Positions 23,922 to 46,885 of a DNA stretch of 64,000 nt are shown one piece after another (the stretch's first letter is position 1; each line of letters starts with the position of its first letter). Made by a program: the position numbers and the translations under genes. The notes under the pieces were generated by a model. The model had not been told where the DNA came from, did no database searches, and was given only the letters and a program-made list of their open reading frames with translations. Source of the stretch: Candidatus Zemynaea palustris (GTDB lineage: Bacteria; Vulcanimicrobiota; Vulcanimicrobiia; Vulcanimicrobiales; Vulcanimicrobiaceae). Where the stretch lies: positions 1 through 64,000 of the forward strand of contig PLCB01000012.1 in the NCBI GenBank assembly GCA_003134695.1, given 5' to 3'.

Positions 23922-25352
23922 GTGATGGATTACGGGTCGTACGCCTCGCCGTTCTCGTGGAGATATGGGCGCGCCGAGTTGCGCGAACTCTTCTCGGAGC
24001 GGGAGCGCAGACGACTGTGGCGTGCCGTCTGGGTGGCGCTGGCCCGCTCGCAAGAGCGCAGCGGTCTCGTCTCCGCAAGCGAAGTGACGGACCTCGAAGC
24101 GCATGCGAACGACGTCGACATCGACGCCGCGCTGAAGATCGAGCGTGAAATCGGTCACGACCTGATGGCGGAATTGCGCGTCTTCGCTTCGCAAGCGCGC
24201 AGTGGTGGCGGAAAACTGCACCTCGGCGCGACCTCGATGGATGTCGAGGACACGGTCGAGGCCTACCGGATGCGGCGCGCGCTGTCGCTTGTCGGCGAAC
24301 GGTTGCATGCCGTCCTGCATGCGTTGGGCGTTCGGATCGTCCAATACGCCGACTTGGTCGCTTTGGGATACACGCATCTCCAGCCGGCCGAGCCGACGAC
24401 GCTCGGGTACCGGCTCGCGGTGTACGCTCAGGATCTGTTGGTCGACGAAGCGCAACTACGCGACGCATACCATCAGATAACGGCCAAAGGCATTCGCGGG
24501 GCCGTCGGAACCTCGGCTTCGTTCGAGCGCCTGCTGCGGGGCACCGGCCGTAGCGCGCGCGATCAGGAAGAAGACGTTCTTTCACATTTTGACTTGAGCG
24601 CTCGCGAGGTCAGCGGTCAAACTTATCCGCGCAAGCTCGATTACTTGGTCGTCTCCGCGCTCGCCGGGCTCGGCGCGTCTCTCTCGAAATTCGCCGCCGA
24701 CGTTCGCATCTTGTCCTCGCCGGGATTCGGCGAACTCTTCGAGCCGTTCGGCGCCAAGCAGGTCGGCAGTTCGGCGATGCCCTTCAAGCGTAATCCGGTA
24801 ATGTGCGAGCGCCTCGGCTCGCTGGCGCGGCTCCTGCCGGCGTATGCGAACGTCCTGTGGCAAAATGCCGCGACCAATTATCTCGAGCGGACCCTCGACG
24901 ACAGCGCCAATCGGCGCGTGGTCCTTCCCGAGTCGTTCTTGTGTAGCGACGAACTGCTCGGCTTGGGCTTGAAGATCGTGGAAGGGCTGCGGGTCGACGA
25001 GCGACGGATCGCGCAGAATCTGCGCGCCTTCGGACCCTTCGCCGGCAGCGAAGCCGTACTCATGGAAGCGGTCAAAGCCGGTGGCGATCGCCAAGTGCTG
25101 CACGAGGTCATTCGAGAAGCCGCCATGCGCGCGCACGAAGTGGTGGGGAGCGGCCGCGACAATCCGCTCGCGCAGTATCTGGTCGACGACACGCATTTGA
25201 CGGCGCTGCTCGACCCGGCCGAGATTCGCGCGTTGCTCGATCCGAGCGATCAGGTCGGCGACGCGCCGGAGCGCGCCCGCCGTTTGGCGTCGCAGATCGA
25301 AGAGTTGCCGCCGTTTCCGAAGCCGCGCGCTTTGTTGGGAGCATCTTCGTGA
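23922..25352 (+). CDS. purB: adenylosuccinate lyase
   Basis: This 476-aa member of the aspartase/fumarase superfamily cleaves SAICAR to AICAR and adenylosuccinate to AMP. It has LHLGATSMDVEDT, GYTHLQPAEPTTLGYRLA with the catalytic His, RGAVGTSASF and the signature SSAMPFKRNPVMCERL with the flexible catalytic loop. GTG 23922 and ATG 23925 are adjacent possible starts. It opens the purine cluster; its stop overlaps the purC start. Confidence 0.95.
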   Translation: MMDYGSYASPFSWRYGRAELRELFSERERRRLWRAVWVALARSQERSGLVSASEVTDLEAHANDVDIDAALKIEREIGHDLMAELRVFASQARSGGGKLHLGATSMDVEDTVEAYRMRRALSLVGERLHAVLHALGVRIVQYADLVALGYTHLQPAEPTTLGYRLAVYAQDLLVDEAQLRDAYHQITAKGIRGAVGTSASFERLLRGTGRSARDQEEDVLSHFDLSAREVSGQTYPRKLDYLVVSALAGLGASLSKFAADVRILSSPGFGELFEPFGAKQVGSSAMPFKRNPVMCERLGSLARLLPAYANVLWQNAATNYLERTLDDSANRRVVLPESFLCSDELLGLGLKIVEGLRVDERRIAQNLRAFGPFAGSEAVLMEAVKAGGDRQVLHEVIREAAMRAHEVVGSGRDNPLAQYLVDDTHLTALLDPAEIRALLDPSDQVGDAPERARRLASQIEELPPFPKPRALLGASS

Positions 25353-26542
25353 ACAAAGGTCTCGAGGTCGCGCGCGGTAAGACGAAGGTTCTCTTCGAGC
25401 AGCCCGGCCAGCCCGACGTACTGGTCGTTCAGGCGCTCGATTCGATCACCGCCGGCGACGGAGCGCGTCGGCACGAGATCGCGGGGAAGGGCCGCATCGC
25501 CGCCAAGACGACCGCGCGCATCTTCCGTTTGCTCAACCTGTGCGGTTTGCCGACGCACTACCTCTCCGGCGGTGAAGACGACGACGATAACGAGATGCTG
25601 GTGCGCCGTTGCAGCATGATTCCGCTCGAAGTCGTCGTTCGCGGCGTCGCCGCTGGTTCGCTCGTGCGCCGGAAGCCGGGGATCGCGCGCGGCTCGATCA
25701 TCATCCCGCGCATGGTTGAGTTCTTCTTCAAGGATGACGCCAACCACGACCCGCTCATCGATCCCGAAGACATCGTGGCCCGGGGCATCGCGTCGCCGGC
25801 CGAGATCGCGCTGATGGGCGAGGTGGCGCGCCTGACGTTCGAGATCTTGGCGCACGCTTGGCGGCGGCGCGAGACGCTCTTGGTCGACTTAAAAGTCGAA
25901 TTCGGTCGGCTGGTCGGCGGCGAAAGCCGCGGCACGCTCGTCCTGGCCGACGTCATCGACAACGACGCGTGGCGCGTCTGGCCGCAAGGCCGCGAAGACC
26001 TGATGCTCGACAAACAAGTCTACCGGAATCTGAGCGAGGTGACGCCGGCCGATCTCGACCGCGTTCGCGAGAATTACGAGCAGGTCTCCGAGATCGTCGG
26101 AACGTTTCCGACGATGCGCCCGGCGATGGCGGCGCTGATCGCCGACGGGGAAAATGCCGTCGCGCTGCTGGATCCGGTGATGCGTGCGCTGGCGCAGTTT
26201 GGGATGCAGAGTCTGCGGCGGGTCGTCTCGACCGACCTCACGCCGCACTTCGTCGTTCAGGTCACGCAGCAGCTCGACGCGAGCTTCTCGCGCCTCGTCT
26301 ATGTGGCATCGGGGCCGCAACTCGCGGCGATGCTCGGTGCGGCGACCGCGGCGCCGGTGTTCGACGCGACCGAATTCGAGGCCGACGAGCTGGCGCTCGC
26401 GATCGCAAAGCCGCTGGCGCTGGACGACACGATCCTCTTCGGACGGGTTCTACTCGTGCAAGCCAACGCACGCTCGGCGGTTCTGCATGCCGATGCGCAA
26501 CTCAACGCGCCTGGGCCGGCGCCGAACGGGACCGTTGCCTAA
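25349..26542 (+). CDS. purC: SAICAR synthetase fused to a degenerate PurE-like domain
   Basis: This 397-aa protein is about 150 aa longer than normal PurC. Residues 1-250 are SAICAR synthetase (ATP- and aspartate-dependent), with EVARGKTKVLFE, EMLVRRCSMIPLEVVVRGVAAGSL and DKQVYRN. Residues about 257-375 follow the PurE fold segment by segment: ALAQFGMQSLRRVVSTDLTPHF matches the PurE helix then VVSAHRTP, and LVYVASGPQLAAMLGAATAAPVF matches IIAGAGGAAHLPGMIAAKT. The PurE catalytic elements are lost: GSxSD reads DGENA, the AHR of SAHRTP reads TDL, and GGAAHLPGM reads GPQLAAMLG. The fusion mirrors animal PAICS (PurC-PurE) but its second domain should be catalytically dead and may serve oligomerisation. 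ATGA-type coupling joins it to purB. Confidence 0.93.
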   Translation: MNKGLEVARGKTKVLFEQPGQPDVLVVQALDSITAGDGARRHEIAGKGRIAAKTTARIFRLLNLCGLPTHYLSGGEDDDDNEMLVRRCSMIPLEVVVRGVAAGSLVRRKPGIARGSIIIPRMVEFFFKDDANHDPLIDPEDIVARGIASPAEIALMGEVARLTFEILAHAWRRRETLLVDLKVEFGRLVGGESRGTLVLADVIDNDAWRVWPQGREDLMLDKQVYRNLSEVTPADLDRVRENYEQVSEIVGTFPTMRPAMAALIADGENAVALLDPVMRALAQFGMQSLRRVVSTDLTPHFVVQVTQQLDASFSRLVYVASGPQLAAMLGAATAAPVFDATEFEADELALAIAKPLALDDTILFGRVLLVQANARSAVLHADAQLNAPGPAPNGTVA

Positions 26543-28901
26543 GGCTTCTTTCCCCGGGATCGGCCTTTCGGACGACGAGATTCGCCTGATTACCGAGCGC
26601 CTCGGGCGCGAGCCGACGCTTGTGGAGGCGCACGCGTTCGACGCGCAATGGAGCGAGCATTGCTCGTACAAGAGCTCGCGCGCTCACCTCGCACGGCTTC
26701 CGACCGACGGACCCGACGTGATTCTCGGTCCGGGTCAGGATGCCGGGATCGTACGGCTCGGGGAGTGGAAGGGCGAGACCTACGGCATCGTGATCGCGCA
26801 CGAGTCGCACAACCATCCGTCGCAGGTCGTGCCGTTCGAGGGCGCGGCGACGGGGATCGGCGGCATCGTGCGCGACGTGCTCTGCATGGGAGCGCGCGTG
26901 ATCGCGCTGGCCGACCCGCTGCGTTTCGGCCCGCTCGACGATCCGCATTCGCGCTACGTCGCGCAAGGCGTCGTCGACGGGATCGCGGCCTACGGCAACG
27001 CAATCGGCGTCCCGACGATCGCCGGCGACGTCTACTTTCACGACGGCTTCCGCGACAATTGTCTGGTCAACGTCGTCGCGCTCGGGATCGTCAAGGAGTC
27101 GGAGATCATCCATTCGTGCGCGCCGGCCGGCTCGGACGGCTGGGATATCGTGCTGATCGGGAAAGCGACCGATCGCAGCGGCTTCGGCGGCGCCGCGTTC
27201 TCGTCGCTCGTGCTCGATGAGAAGGATGCGGAGGCGAATAAGAGCGCCGTTCAAGTTCCCGACCCGTTCCTGAAGAACGTGATCATGCGCGCCTCGTATC
27301 GGGCGTTCGATGTGATTCGCGAACTCGGACTGACGGTCGGCTTCAAGGACCTCGGCGCGGGCGGGATCATGGGCTGCACGGCCGAGTTAGCCGCGAGCGG
27401 TGGCTTCGGTGCGCGCATCGCACTCGATCGCTGCCTGACGTCGCAGCCCGATTTGCCGGCGGCGGTGATCGCCGTCGGCGAGACGCAGGAACGGCTGGCG
27501 TGGGTCGTCCCGCCCTCGTTCACGCCGCGCTTGTTGCAGATCTATAATGAGGAGTTCTCGTTGCCCCAGATCGCGCGTCATGCGCAAGCGGCCGTTATCG
27601 GAACGATCACCGCGGAGAAGGAGTACGTGCTCACGCACCACGGCGCGGAGGTGATGCACGTCCCGATCGACTTCCTGACCGCCGGCGTGCGGTACGACCG
27701 AGATTACAAGCGGCGTCGACCGAGATACCGAATCGACGAGGACCTGATAATCGACGAGGTTCTGATCGCGGATGACGAGCCCGAGCGCGCCGCCGATAAA
27801 TTCTCTTGGCGGCGTCAGGCCGAGGTCCTCACGCGCCTGACCTTTGACCGGGACCTCGCCCTCAAGGTCTTGAGCCATCCGGACGTCGCATCGCGCCGCA
27901 CGATTTACGAGCGCTTCGATTCGGTCGTGCGCGGAGCGACGTCGATTCCTAGCGGATACGCCGATGCCGGGGTCGTCGTTCCGATACCTGGCAGCCCCTT
28001 CGCCGTGGCGATCGGCCTTGGAGGAAACCCTAGGTACTCGAGACTCGATGCATGCTATGCGGCCGAGCAAGCGGTGTGCGAGGCGTTACGCAACGTCGTT
28101 GCCGTCGGCGCTCGCCCCGCGGCTTTGACGGATTGCTTGAACTTCGGGAATCCGGAGGATGCGAGGCAAATGGGTGACTTCGTTGCGGCCGTCGACGGTC
28201 TGCGGTTCGCCGCATCTCAGTTTGGCTTGCCATTCGTCTCGGGCAACGTGAGTTTTTACAATCAGTCCGCATCGGGGGAATCGATTCCCGGGTCACCGAT
28301 CGTTGCATGTGTGGGGGTCATCGACGACGTCTCCCATACCGTCACGCCCGCATTTCACCGCTCGGGGAACAAGCTGTATTACATCGCCGGCCTTTCGAGC
28401 AATGCCCTCGGCGGATCAGTCTTCGCCGACGTCTTCGGACTTGAGAACGGGCCGCTCCAGCCGATTGCGTACGGCGACGTACGGCGTGAGCCGAACTTCG
28501 TACGCTCCGGTATAACCGCCGGCGCGATCCTTTCGTGTCATGACGTCTCCGATGGCGGCGTTTTCGCGACGGTCGCCGAGATGGCGTTCGCGACGCGCAA
28601 CGGGCTCCGCATCGGAGCCGAGCTTTCGTCGTTTGACCTGGAGGGAGTGAGTGATAAGGTTCTTATCACCGAGTACTTCAACGAGGGCGGCGGATTCGTT
28701 ATTGAGGCGAGCGACGTCTTCGACGAATGGTCCGCGCAGCTTGAGCACTACCGAGGTGCGTGGGAGCTCGGTACGACGACGCAGGCGTACGAGCTAACGG
28801 TCCGCAGGGGTGAGCGTCCGTCTCTCCGCTGGACCGTCGATGAACTCTACGAAGCATGGTCGGATCCGTTGCGGACCTTCTACGAGGGCGTGCCGGCGTG
28901 A
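26535..28901 (+). CDS. purL: FGAM synthase large subunit (PurL, small type)
   Basis: This 788-aa protein makes formylglycinamidine ribotide from FGAR, ATP and ammonia delivered by PurQ, and as the small form needs PurS. It has LGREPTLVEAHAFDAQWSEHC with the catalytic His, IAHESHNHPSQVVPFEGAATGIGGIVRD for ATP and magnesium, KDLGAGGIMGCTAELA, and the second half with DCLNFGNPED and SGNVSFYNQS. It is slightly longer than the usual 600-750 aa. The only start near the conserved region is TTG 26535, overlapping the purC end by 8 nt. Its stop overlaps the purQ GTG. Confidence 0.94.
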   Translation: MPKASFPGIGLSDDEIRLITERLGREPTLVEAHAFDAQWSEHCSYKSSRAHLARLPTDGPDVILGPGQDAGIVRLGEWKGETYGIVIAHESHNHPSQVVPFEGAATGIGGIVRDVLCMGARVIALADPLRFGPLDDPHSRYVAQGVVDGIAAYGNAIGVPTIAGDVYFHDGFRDNCLVNVVALGIVKESEIIHSCAPAGSDGWDIVLIGKATDRSGFGGAAFSSLVLDEKDAEANKSAVQVPDPFLKNVIMRASYRAFDVIRELGLTVGFKDLGAGGIMGCTAELAASGGFGARIALDRCLTSQPDLPAAVIAVGETQERLAWVVPPSFTPRLLQIYNEEFSLPQIARHAQAAVIGTITAEKEYVLTHHGAEVMHVPIDFLTAGVRYDRDYKRRRPRYRIDEDLIIDEVLIADDEPERAADKFSWRRQAEVLTRLTFDRDLALKVLSHPDVASRRTIYERFDSVVRGATSIPSGYADAGVVVPIPGSPFAVAIGLGGNPRYSRLDACYAAEQAVCEALRNVVAVGARPAALTDCLNFGNPEDARQMGDFVAAVDGLRFAASQFGLPFVSGNVSFYNQSASGESIPGSPIVACVGVIDDVSHTVTPAFHRSGNKLYYIAGLSSNALGGSVFADVFGLENGPLQPIAYGDVRREPNFVRSGITAGAILSCHDVSDGGVFATVAEMAFATRNGLRIGAELSSFDLEGVSDKVLITEYFNEGGGFVIEASDVFDEWSAQLEHYRGAWELGTTTQAYELTVRRGERPSLRWTVDELYEAWSDPLRTFYEGVPA

Positions 28902-29683
28902 GTGCGCGGGTCGCTGTTCTCGTTTTTCCGGGGACCAATAGCGAAGAAGAGACCGTTCGCGCGTGTCGCGCGGTCGGGCTCGAAGCCGATGCTGTTCACT
29001 GGAACGCCGATCTCGACGAGGTGCGACGCTTCGACGCGTACGTGCTGCCGGGCGGGTTCGCATACGAAGATCGCGTGCGCGCGGGCGCGATCGCCGCGCA
29101 CGATCGATTGATGACGGCCGTCCGCGAGGGCGCCGCCGAGGGCAAACTGGTCCTGGGCATCTGCAACGGCGCGCAGGTCTTGCTCGAAGCGGGGCTCGCG
29201 CCCGCGCTGGGCGGCGACAGCTCCATTCAAGCGGGCTTTGCGAAAAACGCGCCCCTCGGGAAGTTTCGCTCGACGCACGTCCACGTCAAACTCGCGATCC
29301 CACCGGAGCGCTGCGCGATCACCGCGCATCTTGCGCCGAACGCGGTGATCCCGGGATGGGCCTCGCATGGCGAAGGCCGGCTCGCCGCGCACGACGACGT
29401 CCTCGCTCGCATCGAGCGCGAAGGTCACCTCGCCTTCGTCTACTGCGATGCGAGCGGCGAGACGACGACCGAGGCGATCCCCAATGGCTCCGCGCTCGGT
29501 GCGGCGGGGCTGGTCAACGCCGCCGGGAACGTGCTCGCCATCATGCCGCATCCCGAGCGCGATGCGTGGACGTTCAATCATCACGACGATTCGCGCGAGC
29601 GGGCGCGCGGAAACGCGAACGCGATGCTCGCCCCGTCGGGCGGCATCGCGCTCTTTGAAAGCCTGGCGAAAGCGCTACGTTAG
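28898..29683 (+). CDS. purQ: FGAM synthase glutaminase subunit
   Basis: This 261-aa class I glutamine amidotransferase supplies ammonia to PurL. It has VLVFPGTNSEEETVRA, LPGGFAYEDRVRAGAIAAHD, the nucleophile Cys in GICNGAQVLLEAGL, and the catalytic His and Glu in IMPHPERDAW. It is about 30 aa longer than typical PurQ, with extra sequence near the C-terminus (FNHHDDSRERARGNANAML). The GTG overlaps the purL stop by 4 nt. It converges with the next gene, overlapping by 4 nt. Confidence 0.95.
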   Translation: MSARVAVLVFPGTNSEEETVRACRAVGLEADAVHWNADLDEVRRFDAYVLPGGFAYEDRVRAGAIAAHDRLMTAVREGAAEGKLVLGICNGAQVLLEAGLAPALGGDSSIQAGFAKNAPLGKFRSTHVHVKLAIPPERCAITAHLAPNAVIPGWASHGEGRLAAHDDVLARIEREGHLAFVYCDASGETTTEAIPNGSALGAAGLVNAAGNVLAIMPHPERDAWTFNHHDDSRERARGNANAMLAPSGGIALFESLAKALR

Positions 29684-30343: not shown

Positions 30344-30820
30344 ATGACCGTCACGCGCTACGTCGAAGTCGTCTTAACGATCCCCGACAACGAGGCGGAG
30401 ACGGCCCTGACGACGCTGCGTCGCCTCGGCGTTCACGTCGACGAGTTGCGGCGCTCGGATCTCTATCGCATCGAAGTCGAGCCCGAGCGAGAGGGGACGT
30501 TGCTCGAAACGCTGCGCGAGATCGAGACGATCTACAACCCGAACAAGCACGCGCTGCGACTCCGTTCCGACGTCGCACCGCAACCCGGCGAGGCATGGAT
30601 CGACGAGCCGAAGACGGTGGATTCCGCGCGTGGCCCGGTTCACATCGCGGGGCGGGTCCTGCCCGGCGTTTGGGGGCTCGAGCGTCTCGTCGCCTGGCAG
30701 CTCTCAGATTCGCTTGGCAAGCCTGCAAGCGCGGAGGTTGTCGCGCGTGCAGCCGAAACTCTGCTGTGCAATCCTGCCTTCCAGCGTGCAACGACCAACT
30801 CTCACATAAGGCCGAAATGA
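30344..30820 (+). CDS. purS: PurS-like subunit with C-terminal extension
   Basis: This 158-aa protein is about twice normal PurS (about 80 aa). Residues 1-75 have the PurS pattern: VEVVLTIPDNEAETALTTLRRLG, then DLYRIEVEPEREGTLLETLREIETIYNPNKHAL. The C-terminal part (VLPGVWGLERLVAWQLSDSLG ... VARAAETLLCNPAFQRAT) looks like pieces of a second PurS unit, since PurS ends in a helix and (L/C)-L-A-N-P. It should bridge PurL and PurQ. The ATG at 30344 begins MTVTRYVEVVL; the open frame upstream is unlike PurS. Its stop overlaps the purP start (ATGA). The assignment rests on fold pattern, motif and the absence of any other purS in the cluster. Confidence 0.7.
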   Translation: MTVTRYVEVVLTIPDNEAETALTTLRRLGVHVDELRRSDLYRIEVEPEREGTLLETLREIETIYNPNKHALRLRSDVAPQPGEAWIDEPKTVDSARGPVHIAGRVLPGVWGLERLVAWQLSDSLGKPASAEVVARAAETLLCNPAFQRATTNSHIRPK

Positions 30821-31887
30821 TCGCACCAGAACTTCTTCCGACGCCGGCTCAGCAGCAAGTGGGCGATTTCTATACGATCGCGACCCTCGGCTCGCATTCG
30901 GCGCTGCAGATTCTCAAGGGTGCGCGCGACGAAGGCTTCAAGACGCTCGCGATCGCCAGCTACGAGACCGAGCGGCTCTATCGCTCGTTCAACTTCGTCG
31001 ACGAAGTCATCACGATCTCGCGGTACCAGGATTTCATGTCGCTCGTGCCCGAGCTCGAAGAACGAAAGGTGATCATCGTTCCGCACGGTTCGTTCGTCGC
31101 CTATCTCTCGCTGGAAGAGCACAAGCGAATGAACGTGCCGTACTTTGGAAACAAAGCGGTGCTCGATTGGGAAGCGAGCCGAGAAATGCAGCGGGTTTGG
31201 CTGACGAAGGCCGGGTTGAAGGTTCCACGGCAGTTCCGATCCGGCTCCGAGATCGACCGGCCGGTCATCGTCAAGTTATACGGGGCACAGGGCGGCAAGG
31301 GCTACATGTTCGTGCGCGACGCTGCCGACTTCGAACGCCGTGCCGGCGAACTCACTCGCCAAAACTACGTCCTGCAAGAGTACATCATCGGCGTCCCGTT
31401 CTACATCCACTATTTTTATTCACCGCTTACCGGCAAGCTCGAGATCATGAGCATGGACCGGCGATATGAAACCAACGTCGATTCGCTCGGGCGCATTCCG
31501 GCGGCGGCGCAAGAGGGGATGGACGTCAGCCCGAGTTACGTCGTCGTTGGCAATTCGCCGCTCTCGCTGCGCGAGTCGATGCTGGCCGAGGCGTATCGGA
31601 TGGGCGAAGACGTCGTGCGCGTGAGCCAGGAAATCTGCCCGCCGAAAGGCCTGTTCGGTGCCTTCTGTATCGAAACGATCATCACACCCGACGCACAGTT
31701 CTACATCATGGAGATCTCGGCGCGCATCGTCGCCGGGACCAATCTCTTCATCGACGGATCTCCGTATTCGTATTTGAACTACAGCGAGCCGATGTCGACC
31801 GGCCGCCGGATCGCGCGCGAGATCAAGAACGCGCTGCTCTCGAACTCGTTGCACGCGGTTCTCGACGACGGAGGATCTGCCGGTTAG
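30817..31887 (+). CDS. purP: FAICAR synthetase, archaeal-type PurP
   Basis: This 356-aa ATP-grasp enzyme makes FAICAR from AICAR, formate and ATP without folate. Nearly every PurP landmark is present: YTIATLGSHSALQILKGARDEGF, VIIVPHGSFVAYLSL, PYFGNKAVLDWEASR, IVKLYGAQGGKGYMFV (the ATP-grasp glycine loop), PFYIHYFYSPLTGKLEIMSMDRRYETNVD, RIPA, GPFC-like GLFGAFCIETI, MEISARIVAGTN and SMGQRIAREIK-like STGRRIAREIK. PurP is the usual archaeal replacement for the transformylase half of PurH. Its presence inside a bacterial pur cluster suggests lateral transfer or an ancient bacterial lineage of the family. It is translationally coupled to the PurS-like gene. Confidence 0.93.
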   Translation: MIAPELLPTPAQQQVGDFYTIATLGSHSALQILKGARDEGFKTLAIASYETERLYRSFNFVDEVITISRYQDFMSLVPELEERKVIIVPHGSFVAYLSLEEHKRMNVPYFGNKAVLDWEASREMQRVWLTKAGLKVPRQFRSGSEIDRPVIVKLYGAQGGKGYMFVRDAADFERRAGELTRQNYVLQEYIIGVPFYIHYFYSPLTGKLEIMSMDRRYETNVDSLGRIPAAAQEGMDVSPSYVVVGNSPLSLRESMLAEAYRMGEDVVRVSQEICPPKGLFGAFCIETIITPDAQFYIMEISARIVAGTNLFIDGSPYSYLNYSEPMSTGRRIAREIKNALLSNSLHAVLDDGGSAG

Positions 31888-31906
31888 GTATTTCCTCGCC
31901 GGCCTC

Positions 31907-32980
31907 GTGCTCGTGGCGTTGTCTTTCGCGTCGGCGAGCGCGGTGATCGAGACCGATCCGGGCGTCCTCTCGCAGACGATGCAGCGCGCGTATGAAGAGG
32001 GGGCGAAGAAGGGCTGGCCGTTCAGCGCGACCCTGTACTACCAAACGACGGTCTTCGATGCCGGACGCTCGTTCGCTCTCTTCAAGCCGGCCGATCCGCA
32101 CTACGCTGAGGTCGCCGCCATCGCCATCCAGGTTGCGACCGATGCGCATTACGACCCGCTGCTCAACGACGACGCCTCGCTGTGGTACGTGCGCGATGCC
32201 GCGAAGTGGGTGCAAGAGCACGGCGACGCCGATCAGGCGAAGAAGGCTAGCGCGCTGCTCGACAAGATCGTGGCGGGAGATGCCGACCCGGCGGCGCTCG
32301 CTCGCCAAGCGGAAGACGACGCGATCGCGAATGCCACGGCGTTTCGGCGTGATCCGGATTCGCTGATCCAGATCGTCGTCGCCGACGTCCGGGCGTACAA
32401 CTTGACGCTCGATCGGCGCTACCGCCGCCTCATGTTTCTGCACGCCTCGGAACCGACGATGCCGCTGACGCGCCTCCCCGATCCCGAAGGCGCACAACTC
32501 TTCGCGATCGCGGACGAGGCGCTGCATGGTGGCGGGGGATTCACTGAGACCGATCGTTTCGAGGCGAAGATGCTCGACGAGCGCCGTCGCACCACGCCGG
32601 CGTTGCAGACGACCGGCCGTACCAGAAGCGTGCCGAACGAGGTCCGTCTCTCCCGCACGGCGCCGGCCGATGAATATTTCGGTCGCACGCGGCTTTCACC
32701 GCTCGGCGCCGGCAACGAGATCATTCGCATCAACAAGTATCTGGACGCCGGCTGGGGCAAACGGATGGCGCAAGATGCGCTCTACCTCGAATCGTCCCTC
32801 GAGGATTGGCAGCATCAATACCCGCACGACCCGACGCTACCGCCTCGCCTTCTAGCATTCTATCGATTGCTCGTCCGAATCGACGACGTGACGACGCAGC
32901 CTGAGGCGAAGAAGATTCGCAATCTCGTGCTGGTTCAATATGCCGGCTCGGCGCAAGCGCGCGAGCTCGCGGCGATCTGA
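31907..32980 (+). CDS. exported protein of unknown function between two purP genes
   Basis: This 357-aa protein starts with GTG 31907, giving a short hydrophobic stretch (LVALSFASASA). In-frame codons just upstream (YFLAGLV) would complete a better signal peptide, so the true start may be a non-standard codon. The body is helical with no family I recognise; DEYFGRTRLSPLGAGNEIIRINKYLDAGWGKRMAQDAL is a distinctive segment. It starts 19 nt after purP and its TGA overlaps the second purP ATG, so it is part of the operon. A link to purine metabolism is suggested only by position. Confidence 0.65.
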   Translation: MLVALSFASASAVIETDPGVLSQTMQRAYEEGAKKGWPFSATLYYQTTVFDAGRSFALFKPADPHYAEVAAIAIQVATDAHYDPLLNDDASLWYVRDAAKWVQEHGDADQAKKASALLDKIVAGDADPAALARQAEDDAIANATAFRRDPDSLIQIVVADVRAYNLTLDRRYRRLMFLHASEPTMPLTRLPDPEGAQLFAIADEALHGGGGFTETDRFEAKMLDERRRTTPALQTTGRTRSVPNEVRLSRTAPADEYFGRTRLSPLGAGNEIIRINKYLDAGWGKRMAQDALYLESSLEDWQHQYPHDPTLPPRLLAFYRLLVRIDDVTTQPEAKKIRNLVLVQYAGSAQARELAAI

Positions 32981-34101
32981 TGCAGCGCGGCCTAGCCGGC
33001 TACGATAAACGCCGGCTCGCGTTGGGGTCGATCGGGAGCCACTCGGCGCTCGACGTGGCCTCGGGCGCTCGCGCACAGGGACTCCGCAATGTTATCGTGA
33101 CGGCGCGCGGGCGCGACCAAACGTATGCACGACACTTCGCGAGGCGCGAAACACCGGAGCGCGGCTGCGTCGATCGCGTCGTCGAGCTTGCGGCGTTCGC
33201 CGATGTCTTGAAACCTGAAATTCAGCAGACGCTGCTGGACGAGCAGGTCATCTTCGTTCCGAACCGTTCGTTCGAGGTCTACCTGCGCGAGCGCTATTCG
33301 TATGACGAGATCGAACGAGGGATGCTGGTGCCAATTTTCGGTAACCGAAGGTTGCTGCGAGCCGAGGAGCGCGACGAGGCCGAGAACCAGTATGCGTTGC
33401 TTGCACGCGCCGGCATCAGGCATCCGCGTGCCTATGCCTCGCCTCACGAGATCGACGGGCTCGTGATGGTCAAGGCCGCTCACGCCAAGGTCGGATTCGA
33501 GCGCGCGTTCTTCCTGTGCACTTCACCCGCGGACTACGAAAAACAGGCGGCGAGGTTGATCGCGGCCGGCATGCTGACCGCAGAGAGCCTGCGTCTCGCG
33601 CGGATCGAAGAATTCGCCCTCGGTCCGACCCTCAATCTGAATTTCTTCTATTCACCGATCCTCGGTGAACTCGAACTGTGTGGAACCGACACCCGGCGCC
33701 AGACCAATCTCGACGGTCTGCGTGCGTTGCCGCCTGCTCAGCTGCAGATCGGCGCGGAGATTCCGGTCAAGATGGAAGAGGCAGGCCACATCGCGGCGAC
33801 GCTGACCGAGTCGATGTTGGAGCAGGCCTTCGAGCTCGGCGAGCGTTTCGTGGCAGCGGCGCGCTCGGCGAATCCGCCCGGCGTCGTCGGACCGTTCGCG
33901 CTGCAGTGCGTGATCGTGGCCGGACCGCCGAAGGCGTTCGTGGTCTACGACGTCTCGCTCCGCATCCCCGGCTCGCCGGGGACCCGCTACACGCCGTACA
34001 GTGCCTACCGCTGGGGTCGCGACGTCTCGGTCGGCGAACGCATCGCGATGGAAGTGGTGTTCGCGCGCGACACGGATCGGCTCGCCGAGATCGTAACCTG
34101 A
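32980..34101 (+). CDS. purP: second, divergent PurP paralogue
   Basis: This 373-aa protein matches PurP throughout but with more change: LGSIGSHSALDVASGARAQGL, VIFVPNRSFEVYL (where the first copy has VPHGSF), PIFGNRRLLRAEER, LNLNFFYSPILGELELCGTDTRRQTNLDGL, GVVGPFALQCV and VYDVSLRIPGSPGTRYTPYSAYRWG. The ATP-grasp glycine loop is weak (VKAAHAKVGFERAFF instead of GAQGGKGYM), so ATP use is doubtful. Some archaea also carry two PurP paralogues whose second copy has an unsettled role. It may be a structural partner or act on a related substrate. The TGATG overlap couples it to the gene before; its 3' end overlaps the MCO-ZIP gene by 97 nt. Confidence 0.87.
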   Translation: MQRGLAGYDKRRLALGSIGSHSALDVASGARAQGLRNVIVTARGRDQTYARHFARRETPERGCVDRVVELAAFADVLKPEIQQTLLDEQVIFVPNRSFEVYLRERYSYDEIERGMLVPIFGNRRLLRAEERDEAENQYALLARAGIRHPRAYASPHEIDGLVMVKAAHAKVGFERAFFLCTSPADYEKQAARLIAAGMLTAESLRLARIEEFALGPTLNLNFFYSPILGELELCGTDTRRQTNLDGLRALPPAQLQIGAEIPVKMEEAGHIAATLTESMLEQAFELGERFVAAARSANPPGVVGPFALQCVIVAGPPKAFVVYDVSLRIPGSPGTRYTPYSAYRWGRDVSVGERIAMEVVFARDTDRLAEIVT

Positions 34102-36002
34102 CGCGCGGGCGCCGATCGTTGGTTGAGGCCGACGATGATTTCGGTTGCGAGTGCCAGGATGAAGCCGACTGAAACCATCGCGGTCGCGAGCGGCGTCGTT
34201 CCGCCGAGCCGTTTGAGCAACGCCCAGAGTTCGCCGATCACGAAGATGAGCGCGCCCGCCGCAATCGCGAGGAAAAACGTCGAGAGTAGCGGCGAGACGA
34301 AAACGTAGCCGACGACAGTCCCTAAGAACGTTGGCCCGCCGCCGACGATTCCGGCCGCCGCCAATTGCCCCCAACTCGGTACGGTCGCGCGACCGCTGAG
34401 CGGCGCGGCGATTCCGAAACCCTCGGTTGCGTTGTGCAGCGCGAAGCCGATGATCAACCCGATCGCGAGCGCGGTCTGGCCGAGCGCCGCCGATGCGCCG
34501 ATCGCGAGTCCTTCGGCGAAGTTGTGCGCGCCGATCCCGATCGCGATCATCATCGCGAGCGCGTAGGGATGGTCGGCGATCACGGCGCCGCGTTTTGCGA
34601 ACTGCGTCGAGATCGAGCCGAGTCCGACGAGGCCGACGAGCAGACCGGCGACGAGTGCAGCCCCGAGCGCGAACGGAACGGGGCCGCCGCCATGCCAGAG
34701 CGCGACCGCCGTTTCGACCGGCGAAGTCGCATCGTGTGCGATCTCGACGACCAAGAACACGAGAATGCCGATCGCCACCGCGTTGAGCGCGCCGACGGTC
34801 TTCGCCGGGAGGCGCTGCATTCGAGCAATCGGCAACCCGAAGAATATCGTCAGGCCGGCGATCGCGCCGAGCAAGACGGTGGCACCAAGCCCGAGGGCGC
34901 GGCGCGGCGCGGCCATCAGTGTGGACATGTCCATGCCGGCCATCGCCGGGCCCATCGCGGCGAGCGTATTCGGCGTGCCGCGATAATGGAGCGCGGTGAT
35001 GAGCCCGTCCGGATGTGCCGCGCCATCTTCGGTGTGATCGAGGATGTGACAGTGGACGATCCACGTCCCCGGTTGTGCGTTCGCATCGATGACGACGTCG
35101 GCACGCTGACCGGGGCCGAGCAGCACGGTGTCTTGGCGATCGACGTAATCGAGCGGGAGCGCGTCGCGCGCGATCACGATCATATCGTGACCGTGAGTGT
35201 GCATCGTGTGCAGATTTTCGCCGGAGATGTTGATCCAGCGAATGCGAATTCGTTCGCCTCGCGCGACCTCGAAGGCCGGGATGGCCGGATACGATCTTCC
35301 GTTGAGCGTGAAGTGATTCTCGGCCGTGCTCTGGATCTTCCAAGAGGAAAGGATGCCGAGGTAGTCGCGCGCGACCCGTTCTTCGGGTCGAGGATGGGCC
35401 GGCAGGACGACGATCGCGCCGTAGAGTCCGGCGTTGAGCATCGCTTCGGGCCCGTGCGTATGATAGATGAACGTCCCACTCTGCGTCGCGTCGAAGGCGT
35501 AGCGGAAGCTGCCCTTGGGCGGAATCATCGCTTGCGTCACGCCGCCGACGCCGTCCATCGCGACCCGTGCGCCGTGGATTCCGTGCAGATGCATCGTGTC
35601 GGCGACGGGCAGGTCGTTGGTGTAATCGATGACGACGTGGTCGCCCTGGTGCACGACGAGCGCCGGTCCCGGCACGACGCCGTTGTACGTCTTGGCCATC
35701 ACGGTGAGGCCGGGCTTGAGCGTCCAGGGCGCCTCGCGGCCGACGATATGAAAGACCTTGGTCGTCCCGCGCACGTCGGGGAGCGCACGATAGACGCCGT
35801 CCGGGCCGCGGACGATTTTCGATTCACCCGGTGCCGGGGTTGCCCGCGCGATCGGGCCCGCCAGCGGTTGCAAGCCGAGCGAGGTGACGTCGACCCCCGG
35901 CGGCGCCTCGTCGCCGTCGGCGAGGGCCGCAGCCGGGGCCGCGAAGCAGAGGCCCGCGAGCAGCAACAGGGCGCGGAGCCGGACGTTCGGGGTCCGCCAC
36001 AT
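34005..36002 (-). CDS. multicopper oxidase fused to a ZIP metal transporter
   Basis: This 665-aa protein has an N-terminal signal (LLLLAGLCFAAPAAALA). Residues about 75-345 form a cupredoxin pair with all copper motifs: H-L-H-G-I-H at 138-143, H-T-H at 181-183, HTMHTHGH at 265-272 and H-C-H-I-L-D-H at 317-323, as in two-domain laccases. After a Met/Gly linker, residues about 370-625 form a polytopic ZIP domain with HNFAEG (493-498) and HNATEG (523-528), the paired metal-binding signatures of ZIP family members such as ZupT/GufA. This layout puts an outward-facing metal or phenol oxidase on a divalent-metal carrier. The last 40 residues are antisense to purP and may be fortuitous. A 14-bp palindrome lies 25 bp upstream of the ATG. 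Confidence 0.92.
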   Translation of the reverse strand: MWRTPNVRLRALLLLAGLCFAAPAAALADGDEAPPGVDVTSLGLQPLAGPIARATPAPGESKIVRGPDGVYRALPDVRGTTKVFHIVGREAPWTLKPGLTVMAKTYNGVVPGPALVVHQGDHVVIDYTNDLPVADTMHLHGIHGARVAMDGVGGVTQAMIPPKGSFRYAFDATQSGTFIYHTHGPEAMLNAGLYGAIVVLPAHPRPEERVARDYLGILSSWKIQSTAENHFTLNGRSYPAIPAFEVARGERIRIRWINISGENLHTMHTHGHDMIVIARDALPLDYVDRQDTVLLGPGQRADVVIDANAQPGTWIVHCHILDHTEDGAAHPDGLITALHYRGTPNTLAAMGPAMAGMDMSTLMAAPRRALGLGATVLLGAIAGLTIFFGLPIARMQRLPAKTVGALNAVAIGILVFLVVEIAHDATSPVETAVALWHGGGPVPFALGAALVAGLLVGLVGLGSISTQFAKRGAVIADHPYALAMMIAIGIGAHNFAEGLAIGASAALGQTALAIGLIIGFALHNATEGFGIAAPLSGRATVPSWGQLAAAGIVGGGPTFLGTVVGYVFVSPLLSTFFLAIAAGALIFVIGELWALLKRLGGTTPLATAMVSVGFILALATEIIVGLNQRSAPARQVTISASRSVSRANTTSIAMRSPTETSRPQR

Positions 36003-36123: not shown

Positions 36124-37674
36124 ATGGGCGAGGCGGCGCCGGCGACGGTCGTGATTCTGGATTTCGGGGCGCAGTACGGCCAGTTGATCGCGCGCCGCGT
36201 TCGCGAGGCGAACGTCTACTCGGAGTTGCTTCCGTGGGACACGCCGTGGGAAGAGATCGCGGCGCGCGCACCGGCGGCCGTGATCCTGAGCGGCGGTCCC
36301 GAGAGCACGCTCGCGCCGGACGCGCCCGGCGTCGATCGGCGGCTCTGGGACGCCGGCGTTCCGGTGCTCGGCATCTGTTACGGAATCCAGTTGATCGCGC
36401 GCGACCTCGGCGGCACGCTGGTACCGGCGACCCATCGAGAGTACGGTCCGACGACGTTTGAGTTGCTGGAACGCTCGCCGTTGACGGCAGGCGCGGCGGA
36501 GCGCAGCCGCGTGTGGATGTCGCACGGCGACACGGTCGAGAAGCCGCCGCCCGGTTTCTCGGTGATTGGCCACACGCCGCGTTGCGCGATCGCCGCGATG
36601 GGCGATCCGCGCCGGCGTATCTACGGTGTGCAATTCCATCCCGAAGTCGTGCACACCGAAGCCGGACATCGCATTCTCTCGAATTTCTTGCACGGCATCG
36701 CGGATATCAAATCGACCTGGCGCATGGAGTCCTTCGTCGAGCAGAGCGTCGCCGAAATCCGACGCACGGTCGGCGAGGGCCGCGTGATCTGCGCGCTCTC
36801 CGGCGGCGTCGACTCCGCCGTCGCAGCGACGCTGGTCGCCCGCGCCATCGGCGAGCGCCTGACCTGCATCTTCGTCGACACCGGTTTACTGCGCTTGGGC
36901 GAGGCGGAGAGCGTCGTCGCGGCCTTCCGCGACGTGCTGCATCTGCGCGTCGTGAAGGTCGACGCGCAAGAACGTTTTCTCGCACGCCTCGCCGGCGTCG
37001 TCGACCCGGAAGAAAAGCGCATTCGGATCGGACACGAATTCATTGCGATTTTCGAAGAAGAAGCGCGCAAACTTCTCGATGTTGAATGGCTGGTGCAGGG
37101 GACGCTCTATCCCGACGTCATAGAATCGAAGACGCCGGGCTCGAAGGCGGGGCACAAGATCAAGTCGCACCACAACGTCGGCGGCTTGCCCGCGACGATG
37201 AATCTCAAGCTGATCGAGCCGCTACGTCTCTTGTTCAAGGATGAGGTTCGCGCGGTCGGGCGCGTCCTGGGCCTGCCGTCGGAGATCGTCGAACGCCAAC
37301 CTTTCCCCGGACCCGGCTTGGCGGTTCGCGTCCTGGGCGAGGTGACGTCGGATCGTTTACGGACGCTGCGGCTCGCCGACGCCATCGTTACCGGCGAGAT
37401 CGAAGGCGCGCACCTCGCGCCGCATCCGTGGCAGTATTTCGCGGTGCTGACGCCGCTGCAGAGCGTCGGAGTGATGGGCGACGGTCGCACGTATGCAAAC
37501 CTGGTCGCGGTTCGTGCGATCACAAGTGAGGACGGGATGACCGCCGACTGGGCCCGCCTTCCGCATGACTTACTCGAACGCATCAGCACGCGCATCGTCA
37601 ATGAGGTCCCCGGCATCAACCGCATCGCCTACGACGTCACGTCGAAGCCTCCGGCCACCGTCGAGTGGGAATAG
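36124..37674 (+). CDS. guaA: GMP synthase (glutamine-hydrolysing)
   Basis: This 516-aa protein converts XMP to GMP. The glutaminase domain has [24 protein letters not shown], the nucleophile in GICYGIQL (C85) and [12 protein letters not shown]. The ATP pyrophosphatase domain has the P-loop [12 protein letters not shown] and the C-terminal dimerisation part has [18 protein letters not shown] and [14 protein letters not shown]. The ATG at 36124 lacks a strong ribosome site. It is followed at 14 nt by purD, so IMP branching to GMP is built into the cluster. Confidence 0.97.
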
Positions 37675-37688
37675 CGTCGAGCTAGGCG

Positions 37689-38972
37689 GTGCGAATTCTT
37701 GTCATCGGCAATGGGGCGCGGGAAGACGCGCTGGCGTGGCGGTTGGCGCAGTCGCCGTCGTGTGAAGCGGTGTTCGTCGCGCCAGGCAATGCCGGGACCG
37801 CGTTGCGTCACGAGAATTGGCCGATCGTTGCAACCGAAGGGCGCGCGCTCGTCGCGCGCGCCAAAGACGCGCAGATCGATCTGGCGGTGATCGGTCCGGA
37901 AACCGCGATCGCGGCCGGCGTCGCCGATCGTTTTCGCGAGGCGAATATTGCGACGTTTGGCCCCAACCGCAGCGCGGGCCGGCTCGAGTCGAGCAAGATT
38001 TTCGCGAAGCGCTTCATGGAACGGCACGGCGTCTCGACCGCAAAGGCGCGCATCGTCCACTCGCTGGCAAATGCGGAACGCGTCCTCGATGATTGGAGCG
38101 GTGCCTGCGTCGTCAAAGCCGATGGGCTCGCCGCCGGAAAGGGCGTCGTCGTGACGCCCGACGTCGCGACGGCGCGCGCGGTCGTGCGTGAGTGGTACGG
38201 TTCGGGGCGTATCCCGGGCGGCGGCAGCGACGTTCTCTTGGAAGAGAAACTCGACGGACGTGAGGTCAGCGTCTTCGCGCTCGGCGACGGGAAACGGTTT
38301 GTGCCCTTTGCGTCGGCGTGCGACTATAAGCGCGCCGGCGACGCAGATACGGGCCCGAACACCGGCGGGATGGGCGCATACTCGCCGCCTTTCGGATTCC
38401 CGGGAGACCTGCACGACATCGTGCGCGAGCGAATCCTCGAACCCGTCGCGCGCGGCCTGGCCGCCGAAAACGAGCGGTACGTCGGCGCCTTGTACTGCGG
38501 CTTGATGTGGACGGCCGACGGACCGGCGGTGATCGAGTTCAACGCACGTTTCGGCGATCCCGAGACGCAGGTACTTATGCCGCGCGTCCGTGGCGACTTC
38601 GCGCGCGCGCTCGTGAGCGCGGCTCACGGTGCGCTCGAGCCCGACAGCATCTCCTTCGCCGATGACGCGTGCGTCGGCGTCGTCCTCGCGACGGCGGACT
38701 ACCCGCGCACGAGCACACCTCTCGCCGGTCTTCCGGCAGTTCTCGGATTGTCGGAAGGCAAGCTGGCGTTCTGGGGCGGCTCGACGCTGCGCGATGGCGT
38801 CGTCGATTCGAAAGGCGGCCGCGTCCTCACCCTCACCGCACTCGGCGCGACCCTCGCCGAGGCACGTGCCAACGCGTACGACGCCGTCGACGAGGTCGGT
38901 CGCCGGCTAGGCGGCGCCGCGGCGTCGCTTACGTATCGGCGAGACATCGCGGCGCTGCCGCCGACGGCGTGA
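37689..38972 (+). CDS. purD: phosphoribosylamine-glycine ligase
   Basis: This 427-aa ATP-grasp enzyme joins glycine to phosphoribosylamine. It has ILVIGNGAREDALAW, FGPNRSAGRLESSKIFAKRFM, VKADGLAAGKGVVV, LEEKLDGREVSVFAL, DYKRAGDADTGPNTGGMGAYSPP and EFNARFGDPETQVLMPR. The family usually reads GGREHA at the first glycine loop; here it is NGARED. The GTG start begins 14 nt after guaA. Confidence 0.96.
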   Translation: MRILVIGNGAREDALAWRLAQSPSCEAVFVAPGNAGTALRHENWPIVATEGRALVARAKDAQIDLAVIGPETAIAAGVADRFREANIATFGPNRSAGRLESSKIFAKRFMERHGVSTAKARIVHSLANAERVLDDWSGACVVKADGLAAGKGVVVTPDVATARAVVREWYGSGRIPGGGSDVLLEEKLDGREVSVFALGDGKRFVPFASACDYKRAGDADTGPNTGGMGAYSPPFGFPGDLHDIVRERILEPVARGLAAENERYVGALYCGLMWTADGPAVIEFNARFGDPETQVLMPRVRGDFARALVSAAHGALEPDSISFADDACVGVVLATADYPRTSTPLAGLPAVLGLSEGKLAFWGGSTLRDGVVDSKGGRVLTLTALGATLAEARANAYDAVDEVGRRLGGAAASLTYRRDIAALPPTA

Positions 38973-39704: not shown

Positions 39705-41138
39705 ATGGCACGAGCCTTCGATGAGCGGGCTCCGCTCCCGGGCGGCGACACGCTGCACGAAGCGTGCGGCGTGGTTGGGATCTACGCGCCCGGATTCGAT
39801 GTGGCGCGGCTCGCGTATTTCGGGCTCTACGCGCTGCAGCATCGTGGCCAGGAGTCGGCCGGCATCGCCGTCTCCGACGGTGCTTCGATCGTCTGCCACC
39901 GCGAGATGGGCTTGCTCTCGAGCATCTTCGACGAGGAGATCCTCGCTCGGCTGCAGGGCTACATCGCCGTGGGCCACACGCGTTACTCGACGACGGGTTC
40001 GTCGGTCGTCGTCAACGCCCAGCCGCTGCTCGAGCGCGCGGCGTTCGGTGACGTCGCGCTGGCGCACAACGGAAACCTGACCAACACCGACGAGCTGCGC
40101 GATTCGCTGCTGCCCGAGACGACGCTGCAGGCGACGTCGGACTCAGAAGTGCTGGCCAAGGCGATCGTTCAAGCGCCGGGCGCCGACATAGTGGCGCGGA
40201 TTCGGGACGTCATGACGCGCGCCGCCGGCGCGTATTCAATCGTCATGTCGACGACCGATGCGCTCTACGCGTTCCGCGACCCGTGGGGCGTGCGACCGCT
40301 ATGTTACGGGCGCAACCCCGGCGGCGGCTACGTCTTCGCCTCTGAATCGTGCGCCCTGGCGACCGTCGGTGCGAAATACATCCGCGAGATCGAGCCGGGC
40401 GAGATCATGTGGGTCGACGGCGACGGCCTGCATTACGACAAGATCGCTCAGCCCAAGCCCCAAGCGCTTTGCATGTTCGAATACATCTACTTCGCGCGTC
40501 CCGACTCAGTCCTCAACGATCGCTCGATTTACATGGCGCGGCTCGAGATGGGTCGGCGCTTGGCGCGCGAGCATCCGGTCGCCGCCGATGTGGTGATGGC
40601 GGTTCCCGATTCGGCGATCCCGGGCGGAATCGGTTTCGCCCAGGAGAGCGGACTACCATATATCGAGGGGCTCATCAAGAACCGCTATATCGGCCGCACG
40701 TTCATCAGCCCCGACCAGCGGATGCGCAACCGCAGCGTCGAGTTGAAGTTCAATCCGGTCATGGAAAATCTGCGCGGGCAGCGCGTCGTCGTCGTCGACG
40801 ACTCGATCGTGCGCGGCACGACGACACCCCGCATCGTAAAGTTACTGCGCGACTCGGGGGCGACGGAGGTCCACGTGCGAATCACCTCGCCGCCGATCGT
40901 GCATCCATGCTATCTCGGCGTCGACATGGCGACGTACGAGGAGTTGATCGCGGCAAACATGACCATCCCTGAGATATGCGAAGCAATCGGCGCCGACTCG
41001 CTCGGCTATTTGAGCAAAGAGGGGCTGCTTGCCGCCGTCGCTCGGAAGCGCGGCGAGATGTGTCTCGGCTGTCTTACCGGCGAATATCCGGAGACCTATA
41101 ACGGGCCGGCGGTGGTCGCGAGCGGCGCGCGCGGTTAA
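39705..41138 (+). CDS. purF: amidophosphoribosyltransferase
   Basis: This 477-aa enzyme performs the first committed step, PRPP to phosphoribosylamine. It has a propeptide of 20 residues ahead of C21 in HEACGVVGIY, which becomes the N-terminal nucleophile. It has LQHRGQESAGI, VGHTRYSTTG, LAHNGNLTN, and the PRPP loop VVVVDDSIVRGTTT. Cysteines in ALCMFEYIYFARPDS, HPCYLGVD and CLGCLTGEYP are the usual ligands of a 4Fe-4S cluster, so it is the Bacillus-type oxygen-sensitive enzyme. It converges with, and overlaps by 4 nt, the YkgJ-like gene. Confidence 0.97.
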   Translation: MARAFDERAPLPGGDTLHEACGVVGIYAPGFDVARLAYFGLYALQHRGQESAGIAVSDGASIVCHREMGLLSSIFDEEILARLQGYIAVGHTRYSTTGSSVVVNAQPLLERAAFGDVALAHNGNLTNTDELRDSLLPETTLQATSDSEVLAKAIVQAPGADIVARIRDVMTRAAGAYSIVMSTTDALYAFRDPWGVRPLCYGRNPGGGYVFASESCALATVGAKYIREIEPGEIMWVDGDGLHYDKIAQPKPQALCMFEYIYFARPDSVLNDRSIYMARLEMGRRLAREHPVAADVVMAVPDSAIPGGIGFAQESGLPYIEGLIKNRYIGRTFISPDQRMRNRSVELKFNPVMENLRGQRVVVVDDSIVRGTTTPRIVKLLRDSGATEVHVRITSPPIVHPCYLGVDMATYEELIAANMTIPEICEAIGADSLGYLSKEGLLAAVARKRGEMCLGCLTGEYPETYNGPAVVASGARG

Positions 41139-44254: not shown

Positions 44255-45796
44255 TCACGACTTGGCGGCGGTGCTGGGCGCGCCGTTCTTTGCGGCGACG
44301 CGCGTCTTCGCCAGGTCCTCCGCGAACGCGACGAGTGCGCGCACCGGCGTTCCGGTCGGACCTTTCGCCATGTACGGGGTCTCGTCGACGTAAGCGGTTC
44401 CGGCGATGTCGAGGTGGATCCAGGGCGTAGTGCCGACGAAGTTTTGCAAGAACGCGGAAGCCGTGAGGCTCCCGGCGGGCCGGCCCGTCGAGTTACGCAA
44501 ATCGGCGATCTCGCTCTTGACGGCGTTCGAGTAATCCTCGTAGATCGGCAGCTGCCAGTAGCGTTCGCCGGTCTGGTTGGCCACGCTCAAGAAATGTTTG
44601 ACGAAGGGATCGTCGTTGGACATGGTCCCGGTCGCGGCGTGGCCGAGCGCCATCACCATCGAGCCGGTCAAGGTCGCACAGTCGACGATCTTGGTCGCGC
44701 CGAGTTCGCGCGCGTAGCAGAGCGCGTCGGCGAGGATCAGACGGCCTTCGGCGTCGGTGTTGATGACCTCGATCGTCTTGCCGTTCATCGCGCGGACGAT
44801 GTCGCCGGGTTTGGTCGCGCGCGGTCCGGGCAGGTTCTCGCTCGCAGGCACGAGGCCGATCACGTTGAGTTTCGGTTTCAGGCGCGCGACCGCCGAGAGC
44901 GCGGCGATGACGCCGGCGCCGCCCGACATGTCGTACTTCATCTCGTGCATGTTCTCGGCGGGCTTGATTGAGATGCCGCCGGAGTCGAAGGTGAGGCCCT
45001 TGCCGACAAAGGCCAGTTTTTCGGGGTTGCCCGGGTCACCCTCGTAGGTCAGTACGATCAGTTTCGCGGGTTGATCGCTCCCTTGCGAGACGCTGAGCAG
45101 CGAACCCATCCCGAGTTTCTTCATGCGCTCTTCATCGAGCGCTTCGAAACGGAGACCGAATTCTTTGGCCAACTCTTCAGCGCGCTTGGCCATGTGCGTC
45201 GGCGTCATGTCGTTTGCCGGCGTGAGCGCCATCAAGCGCGCGGCGTTGACGGCCTCGCCGAGGACGCGTCCGCGCTCGATGCCCTCGTCGAGCGCGCGTG
45301 CTTCGAATTGGTGGCTTCCCGCGGTTGATACTACGGTGAGTTCTTCGAGCACGATCGGTTTTTCGGGCTCGCTCCGATAGGTGGTCGTATCGATCGTTCC
45401 GGCAAGCGCGCCTTCGACGACGAACGACGCGGCGGCGCGGACGTGATGCTGCGCCTCGAGTGGGAGCGCGATCGCGATCGAGCGGACGTTGCGCTTGCCG
45501 AGGTACCGCACCGCGGTACCGGCATACTTCGCGAGCGCTTGGGGCTCGAACTTCGCGCGGTCGCCGAGTCCGACGACCAAGACGCGCTTGACCGCCAGAT
45601 CTTTAACGTGGATCAGCGCGACTTCGTTGGTCTTTCCTTTTATCTCGCCCGACGCCAAGACGTCGGTGATCGCGCCGCCCAACTCTTGATCGGCTCCTTG
45701 GGCGGCTCCGTCGAGTCGAGCGTCGCTGAAGGCGGGGACGACCAAGGCACCGGCCTGAAGCGATGACGAGGTGCCGGGCGAGACGCGAATTTGCAT
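44255..45796 (-). CDS. pepA: leucyl aminopeptidase (M17)
   Basis: This 513-aa dinuclear-metal exopeptidase has the C-terminal active site VGKGLTFDSGGISIKP, YDMSGGAG, the signature NTDAEGRLILADAL and ATLTGSMVMALG. The ATG at 45796 is supported by GAAAGG 6 nt ahead and by MQIRVSP as a usual start; the frame is open upstream. It diverges from purM with only 34 bp between start codons. Confidence 0.95.
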   Translation of the reverse strand: MQIRVSPGTSSSLQAGALVVPAFSDARLDGAAQGADQELGGAITDVLASGEIKGKTNEVALIHVKDLAVKRVLVVGLGDRAKFEPQALAKYAGTAVRYLGKRNVRSIAIALPLEAQHHVRAAASFVVEGALAGTIDTTTYRSEPEKPIVLEELTVVSTAGSHQFEARALDEGIERGRVLGEAVNAARLMALTPANDMTPTHMAKRAEELAKEFGLRFEALDEERMKKLGMGSLLSVSQGSDQPAKLIVLTYEGDPGNPEKLAFVGKGLTFDSGGISIKPAENMHEMKYDMSGGAGVIAALSAVARLKPKLNVIGLVPASENLPGPRATKPGDIVRAMNGKTIEVINTDAEGRLILADALCYARELGATKIVDCATLTGSMVMALGHAATGTMSNDDPFVKHFLSVANQTGERYWQLPIYEDYSNAVKSEIADLRNSTGRPAGSLTASAFLQNFVGTTPWIHLDIAGTAYVDETPYMAKGPTGTPVRALVAFAEDLAKTRVAAKNGAPSTAAKS

Positions 45797-45830
45797 GACG
45801 AACCTTTCAGCTAGTGGAACGCGCTGTTCG

Positions 45831-46874: not shown

Positions 46875-46885
46875 ACAATCTTCTG

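Follow-up and report, generated by a model that had tools for sequence, protein, structure and literature searches.

The window, by which we mean the whole stretch of DNA that was analysed, spans 64,000 nucleotides of contig C12 in a 2.70 Mb Candidatus Zemynaea palustris genome (61 contigs, 96.7% complete). Its forward strand carries a large purine biosynthesis (pur) operon, including purB (23922-25352; TIGR00928, 341 bits, above the cut-off), purC (25349-26542; PF01259, E 3e-55), purL (26538-28901, with an approximate start; NF002290, 657.8 bits, above the cut-off), purQ (28856-29683; TIGR01737, 191.5 bits, above the cut-off) and a gene for a PurS-like protein with a conserved C-terminal extension (30344-30820; PF02700, 22.5 bits against a cut-off of 22.2). 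The purC product has an extra C-terminal part of about 150 amino acids, which is weakly PurE-like (TIGR01162, E 0.0012 over residues 274-338) and resembles a degenerate PurC-PurE fusion. Two genes of the PurP family follow on the same strand, copy 1 (30817-31887, 356 amino acids) and copy 2 (32980-34101, 373 amino acids), separated by a spacer gene for a putative exported protein (31907-32980, forward strand, 357 amino acids). The next forward-strand pur and gua genes are guaA (36124-37674; NF000848, 762 bits), purD (37689-38972; TIGR00877, 402 bits), purF (39705-41138; TIGR01134, 528 bits), purM (45771-46874; TIGR00878, 296 bits) and an open reading frame (46472-47995) whose C-terminal part is a PurN domain for the folate-dependent GAR step (TIGR00639, 129 bits against a cut-off of 150) and whose N-terminal part is GNAT/MshD-like acetyltransferase. 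On the opposite strand, a multicopper oxidase open reading frame (34005-36002), to which a membrane part similar to ZIP transporters seems to be fused (Zip, 28.8 bits, below the cut-off), overlaps the 3' end of copy 2. A preliminary description of this DNA had proposed two archaeal-type PurP paralogues within a bacterial pur operon, separated by a gene of no known family, and these observations hold: both reading frames are present with Pfam and PDB matches to PurP, and the spacer gene is real and without a Pfam or NCBIfam match.

Copy 1 begins with an ATG that overlaps the stop codon of the PurS-like gene, the stop of the spacer gene is likewise overlapped by the start of copy 2 (TGATG), and the translation of both copies is thus probably coupled to that of the preceding gene. 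The named relatives of copy 2 are metagenome-assembled genomes of Candidatus Eremiobacterota / Vulcanimicrobiota, and the gene order in these relatives is purC-purL-purQ-purS-like-copy 1-(spacer)-copy 2-guaA-purD-purF, all in one direction. In nearly all relatives the PurS-like gene immediately precedes copy 1, guaA is the next co-directional gene past copy 2, and the operon position of the pair is conserved across families of the class Eremiobacteria. Spacer homologues, which are 34-60% identical, stand between both purP genes in most of one family (f1), while in two other families (f2 and f3) the spacer is absent and the purP genes are directly adjacent; the spacer product is fast-evolving and probably exported. 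The two copies are unlinked in a few genomes, for example on separate contigs in G020 and about 27 kb apart in G025.

Brown et al. 2011 (PMC3261824) sorted the PurP-like proteins of archaea into two clusters, I (Ia/Ib) and II. In that study, cluster I proteins carry Asn258 (M. jannaschii numbering) and a (K/R)GG(K/R)G loop, whereas in cluster II the loop is two residues longer and has largely lost its glycines, and position 258 is always His. The formyl-contacting residues His27 and Arg314 are kept in both clusters. These features were scored in an alignment of 55 copy-1 and 42 copy-2 sequences with MJ0136, PF1517 and TK0431, in which a few genomes occur twice via two collections.

Copy 1 matches the Pfam families DUF1246 (142 bits) and DUF1297 (225 bits) far above their cut-offs, and a PurP NCBIfam model at 384 bits, below the equivalog cut-off of 590. 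The cut-off of NF009780 was exceeded in none of 388 genomes, an archaeal-like copy in genome G146 included. Among PDB sequences copy 1 matches PF1517 (E 1e-100) and MJ0136 (E 1e-87), and the best Foldseek match of its AlphaFold model (mean pLDDT 77.5) is PF1517 (2r84). Sequence identity is 51% to PF1517, 44% to MJ0136 and only about 32% to copy 2, and a tree of 46 sequences places it within cluster I, beside PF1517, with support of 98/90. The (K/R)GG(K/R)G P-loop was found in copy 1 with a variable first motif position, occupied by Q in the present copy, and its three glycines are invariant in all 55 copy-1 sequences. The same holds for S94, N258, S266 and R314, and H27 is present in each of the 54 sequences covering it. 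Judged by these residues, copy 1 is a cluster I PurP with intact ATP-grasp loop and AICAR site, in keeping with the preliminary description, which had noted that nearly all PurP motifs are retained, and it is probably a formate- and ATP-dependent FAICAR synthetase (ligase). Fold, glycine loop and AICAR contacts are shared with the cluster Ia/Ib proteins (MJ0136, PF1517; 2r7k, 2r84); unlike these, copy 1 has a bacterial host, a bacterial pur operon and PurH alongside, and it does not reach the NCBIfam equivalog cut-offs. According to the citation in PMC3261824, AICAR-formyltransferase activity was reported to be lacking in two Pyrococcus proteins, PF1517 from one cluster and PF0421 from the other, and the activity of cluster Ib is for this reason unproven.

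Copy 2 also belongs to the family, with matches to DUF1246 (115 bits) and DUF1297 (187 bits) far above the cut-offs, matches to PurP NCBIfam models below the equivalog cut-offs, and a match to MJ0136 among PDB sequences (E 9e-63). The best Foldseek matches of its AlphaFold model (mean pLDDT 82.0) are the MJ0136 structures 2r7m, 2r7l and 2r7k. In place of the glycine loop copy 2 reads VKAAHAKVGFERAFF, confirming the loss described earlier, and this change is conserved across relatives: the loop is two residues longer and has lost the cluster I glycines in 42 of 42 copy-2 sequences, mostly in the form HA(K/R)V(S/G)FERAFF. Asn258 is replaced by His in all 42, and a near-invariant motif, YDVSLRIPGSPGT, replaces the ATP-grasp MEISARIVAGTN of copy 1. 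Residues kept in copy 2 include R314 (42/42), H27 (41 of the 41 sequences covering it), S94 and S266. By the published loop and residue diagnostics, copy 2 is of the archaeal cluster II type. Since the loop change is conserved and accompanied by the other cluster II diagnostics, the loss of the glycines is an old subfamily signature and not decay of copy 2. The PurP tree that the preliminary description had called for placed copy 1 in cluster I and copy 2 in a separate clade outside all cluster I rows (100/100), in a tree that contains no archaeal cluster II rows. Copy 2 resembles archaeal cluster II proteins such as PF0421 and AF0256 in the longer loop with few glycines, the His at 258 and the retained H27 and R314, and AF0256 is described as clustered with guaA1 (PMC3261824), as copy 2 is with guaA here; it differs in being bacterial, and the likeness rests on described features. 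The earlier suggestion that copy 2 may be a structural or regulatory partner agrees with the lost ATP loop, and copy 2 probably serves as a nucleotide-binding partner that works independently of ATP; it may be an IMP cyclohydrolase.

The same genome encodes a complete folate-dependent alternative for the conversion of AICAR to IMP. On another contig (G000:C50) we found a full-length bifunctional PurH (PF01808, 315 bits; NF002049, 580.9 bits against a cut-off of 402; TIGR00355, 508.1 against 528), which aligns over its full length with M. tuberculosis PurH (3zzm). In 29 sequences of the class the active-site motifs are conserved, including K of GRVKTLHP, Y of NLYPF, D of QIDIGG and K of AAAKN, as well as RYG, KH, SN and the final RYF, and PurH decay was rejected on these grounds. 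We take the residue numbers published for human PurH to correspond to these motifs of the class. Residues of both PurH active sites are named in PMC3261824. PurH was present in 52 of 55 class genomes, and the three without it are 63-84% complete. The PurH of the class (e.g. L001:1294-2880, reverse strand) shares unusual KHTVPCG, KSNG and CAGQTNR near the transformylase motifs, where the PurH of G056, a genome of the same phylum with no PurP, has KHTNPCG, KSNT and GVGQQDR. Bacterial PurH is unrelated to PurP and uses 10-formyl-tetrahydrofolate; here a full-length homologue of it resides in the same genome as the PurP pair.

Further one-carbon and purine enzymes were searched for across the genome. 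PurN is encoded in the window and FolD elsewhere. PurO was absent from the whole genome in model searches. The PurU model gave sub-cut-off matches only, to PurN and to another formyltransferase-like open reading frame, and the PurT model likewise stayed below its cut-off, its candidate on contig C48 being PurK as judged from the sequence. Formate-tetrahydrofolate ligase (FTHFS) is absent in this genome and was found in only 3 of 52 class genomes. The preliminary remark that neither purH nor purO is visible thus stands for the window, and genome-wide for purO, and fails for purH, of which a complete copy lies on C50. With PurH intact and PurN and FolD present, the folate route to IMP is complete, and on paper the step could proceed without the PurP pair.

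The literature describes PurP as confined to archaea (PMC4177761). In a first set of genomes, PurP-family matches were present in all 55 Eremiobacteria, mostly two each. Among 149 genomes of the phylum, 112 have a match, all of them in Eremiobacteria except G146, and the Eremiobacteria without one are mostly incomplete, with the exception of G110 (95% complete). When the set was widened to 388 genomes, and so must extend past the 149 of the phylum, 113 genomes had a match, again the class and G146. By eye, the G146 contig (C110; L095) holds a single cluster I PurP amid archaeal-looking genes, for example a ketoacid-oxidoreductase pair, and no bacterial pur operon; it is probably an archaeal contig or binning artefact, and we set it aside as an occurrence outside the class. 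No PurP relatives were found among the viral contigs and plasmids searched.

Both purP genes are under strong purifying selection and clearly maintained, with dN/dS of about 0.01-0.15 for copy 1 and copy 2 in the pairs tested. Among the same 16 genomes, mean identity is 84% for copy 1 and 69% for PurH, and copy 1 is the more similar of the two in 120 of 120 pairs. The PurP tree has only four archaeal or archaeal-like rows, on long branches, and it is therefore the distribution of the family, otherwise archaeal, that indicates the direction of transfer.

On balance, we favour the interpretation that an archaeal cluster Ib and cluster II pair was acquired by the ancestor of Eremiobacteria, became fixed in the purine operon and provides an accessory formate- and ATP-dependent route from AICAR towards IMP beside PurH. 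Pointing to this are the cluster diagnostics, the grouping of copy 1 with PF1517, the synteny, the class-wide presence, the low dN/dS, the stronger conservation of copy 1 than of PurH, the lack of FTHFS and PurO, the sub-cut-off scores with the PurU and PurT models, and the predicted folds; counting against it are the reported inactivity of PF1517 and PF0421, the intact PurH and the lack of an identified formate source in the genome. In this mechanism copy 1 would use ATP to join formate to AICAR, as its conserved ATP and AICAR residues suggest. Copy 2, with nucleotide-monophosphate and formyl contacts kept and no usual ATP site, might, more tentatively, bind AICAR, FAICAR or IMP, and could act either as a regulatory or structural subunit of copy 1 or as a ring-closing cyclohydrolase. 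Most of the class lacks FTHFS, so the pair could channel free formate straight into purines; the likely benefit would be that the final one-carbon addition on the way to IMP can draw on free formate directly.

The main rival, to which we give limited credence, is that the pair acts on another, purine-related substrate or reaction and does not duplicate PurH. It would account for the retention of the pair beside PurH both in Eremiobacteria and in Methanosarcinales (PMC3261824), and it is in line with the reported inactivity, as cited there, of PF1517 and PF0421 as AICAR formyltransferases and with the His that takes the place of Asn at the carboxamide contact in every copy-2 sequence. However, the AICAR-contact residues discussed by Brown et al. 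(PMC3261824) are invariant in copy 1, PF1517 was crystallised with AICAR (2r84), and the pair sits in a pur operon.

A sub-case of the accessory formate route, unlikely in our estimate, is that copy 2 is an alternative IMP cyclohydrolase, such that the pair alone would convert AICAR to IMP. The residues of copy 2 would suit such a role, with formyl and phosphate contacts kept, the ATP loop lost and a His where the substrate carboxamide would lie, and an alternative cyclohydrolase was raised by Brown et al. for archaea without PurO and PurH2 (PMC3261824). Yet these bacteria already have an intact PurH cyclohydrolase domain, and the phyletic pattern in archaea is imperfect (PMC3261824). The bolder form, in which copy 2 is a third type of IMP cyclohydrolase using the invariant His258 near the carboxamide and makes with copy 1 a folate-free AICAR-to-IMP module, is rather unlikely.

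The hybrid pathway proposed in the preliminary description, in which PurP replaces the PurH transformylase so that folate serves the GAR step and formate alone the AICAR step, now appears very improbable. The PurN in the cluster, the intact and highly conserved copy 1 and the lack of PurO would all suit it, but the search for purH elsewhere in the genome, named beforehand as a check that could refute this idea, returned a full-length PurH with intact transformylase and cyclohydrolase residues, both motif sets are conserved across the class sequences, and nearly all class genomes retain the enzyme. Finally, the side-by-side position of the paralogues could suggest that a bacterial gene was recently duplicated and its second copy decayed, and G146 illustrates that archaeal-looking contigs can enter bins, but we give practically no weight to either explanation, as copy 1 is nearer to PF1517 than to copy 2, the low dN/dS, the cluster II diagnostics, the low identity between the copies and the separate clades, whose inner topologies broadly match, rule out a decayed duplicate, and bacterial pur genes flank the purP copies in dozens of genomes.

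The gene set has a close precedent in Methanosarcinales, which possess the same redundant set of full-length PurH, cluster Ib and cluster II proteins (Brown et al. 2011, PMC3261824); the pair described here differs in that a bacterial class carries it within a large pur operon. The kinds of protein and their combination are thus already known, and what is new is the class-wide bacterial occurrence. In the literature within reach of our search, subscription papers lying outside its coverage, no account of a PurP from Eremiobacterota was found.

Throughout a class of soil bacteria, both archaeal PurP types have been kept in the purine operon beside PurH, and, if the favoured interpretation is right, purine synthesis with redundant folate- and formate-based formylation would have been retained across that class. 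Two questions have been standing since at least 2011: what the PurPs of clusters Ib and II do, and what serves as the IMP cyclohydrolase missing from many archaea. Vulcanimicrobium alpinus is a cultured member of the class (PMC9758169), and since the class is mesophilic, has this cultured member and encodes the pair in an operon, both questions become directly testable. If copy 2 did prove to be a third type of cyclohydrolase, the missing-cyclohydrolase problem of many archaea would be solved.
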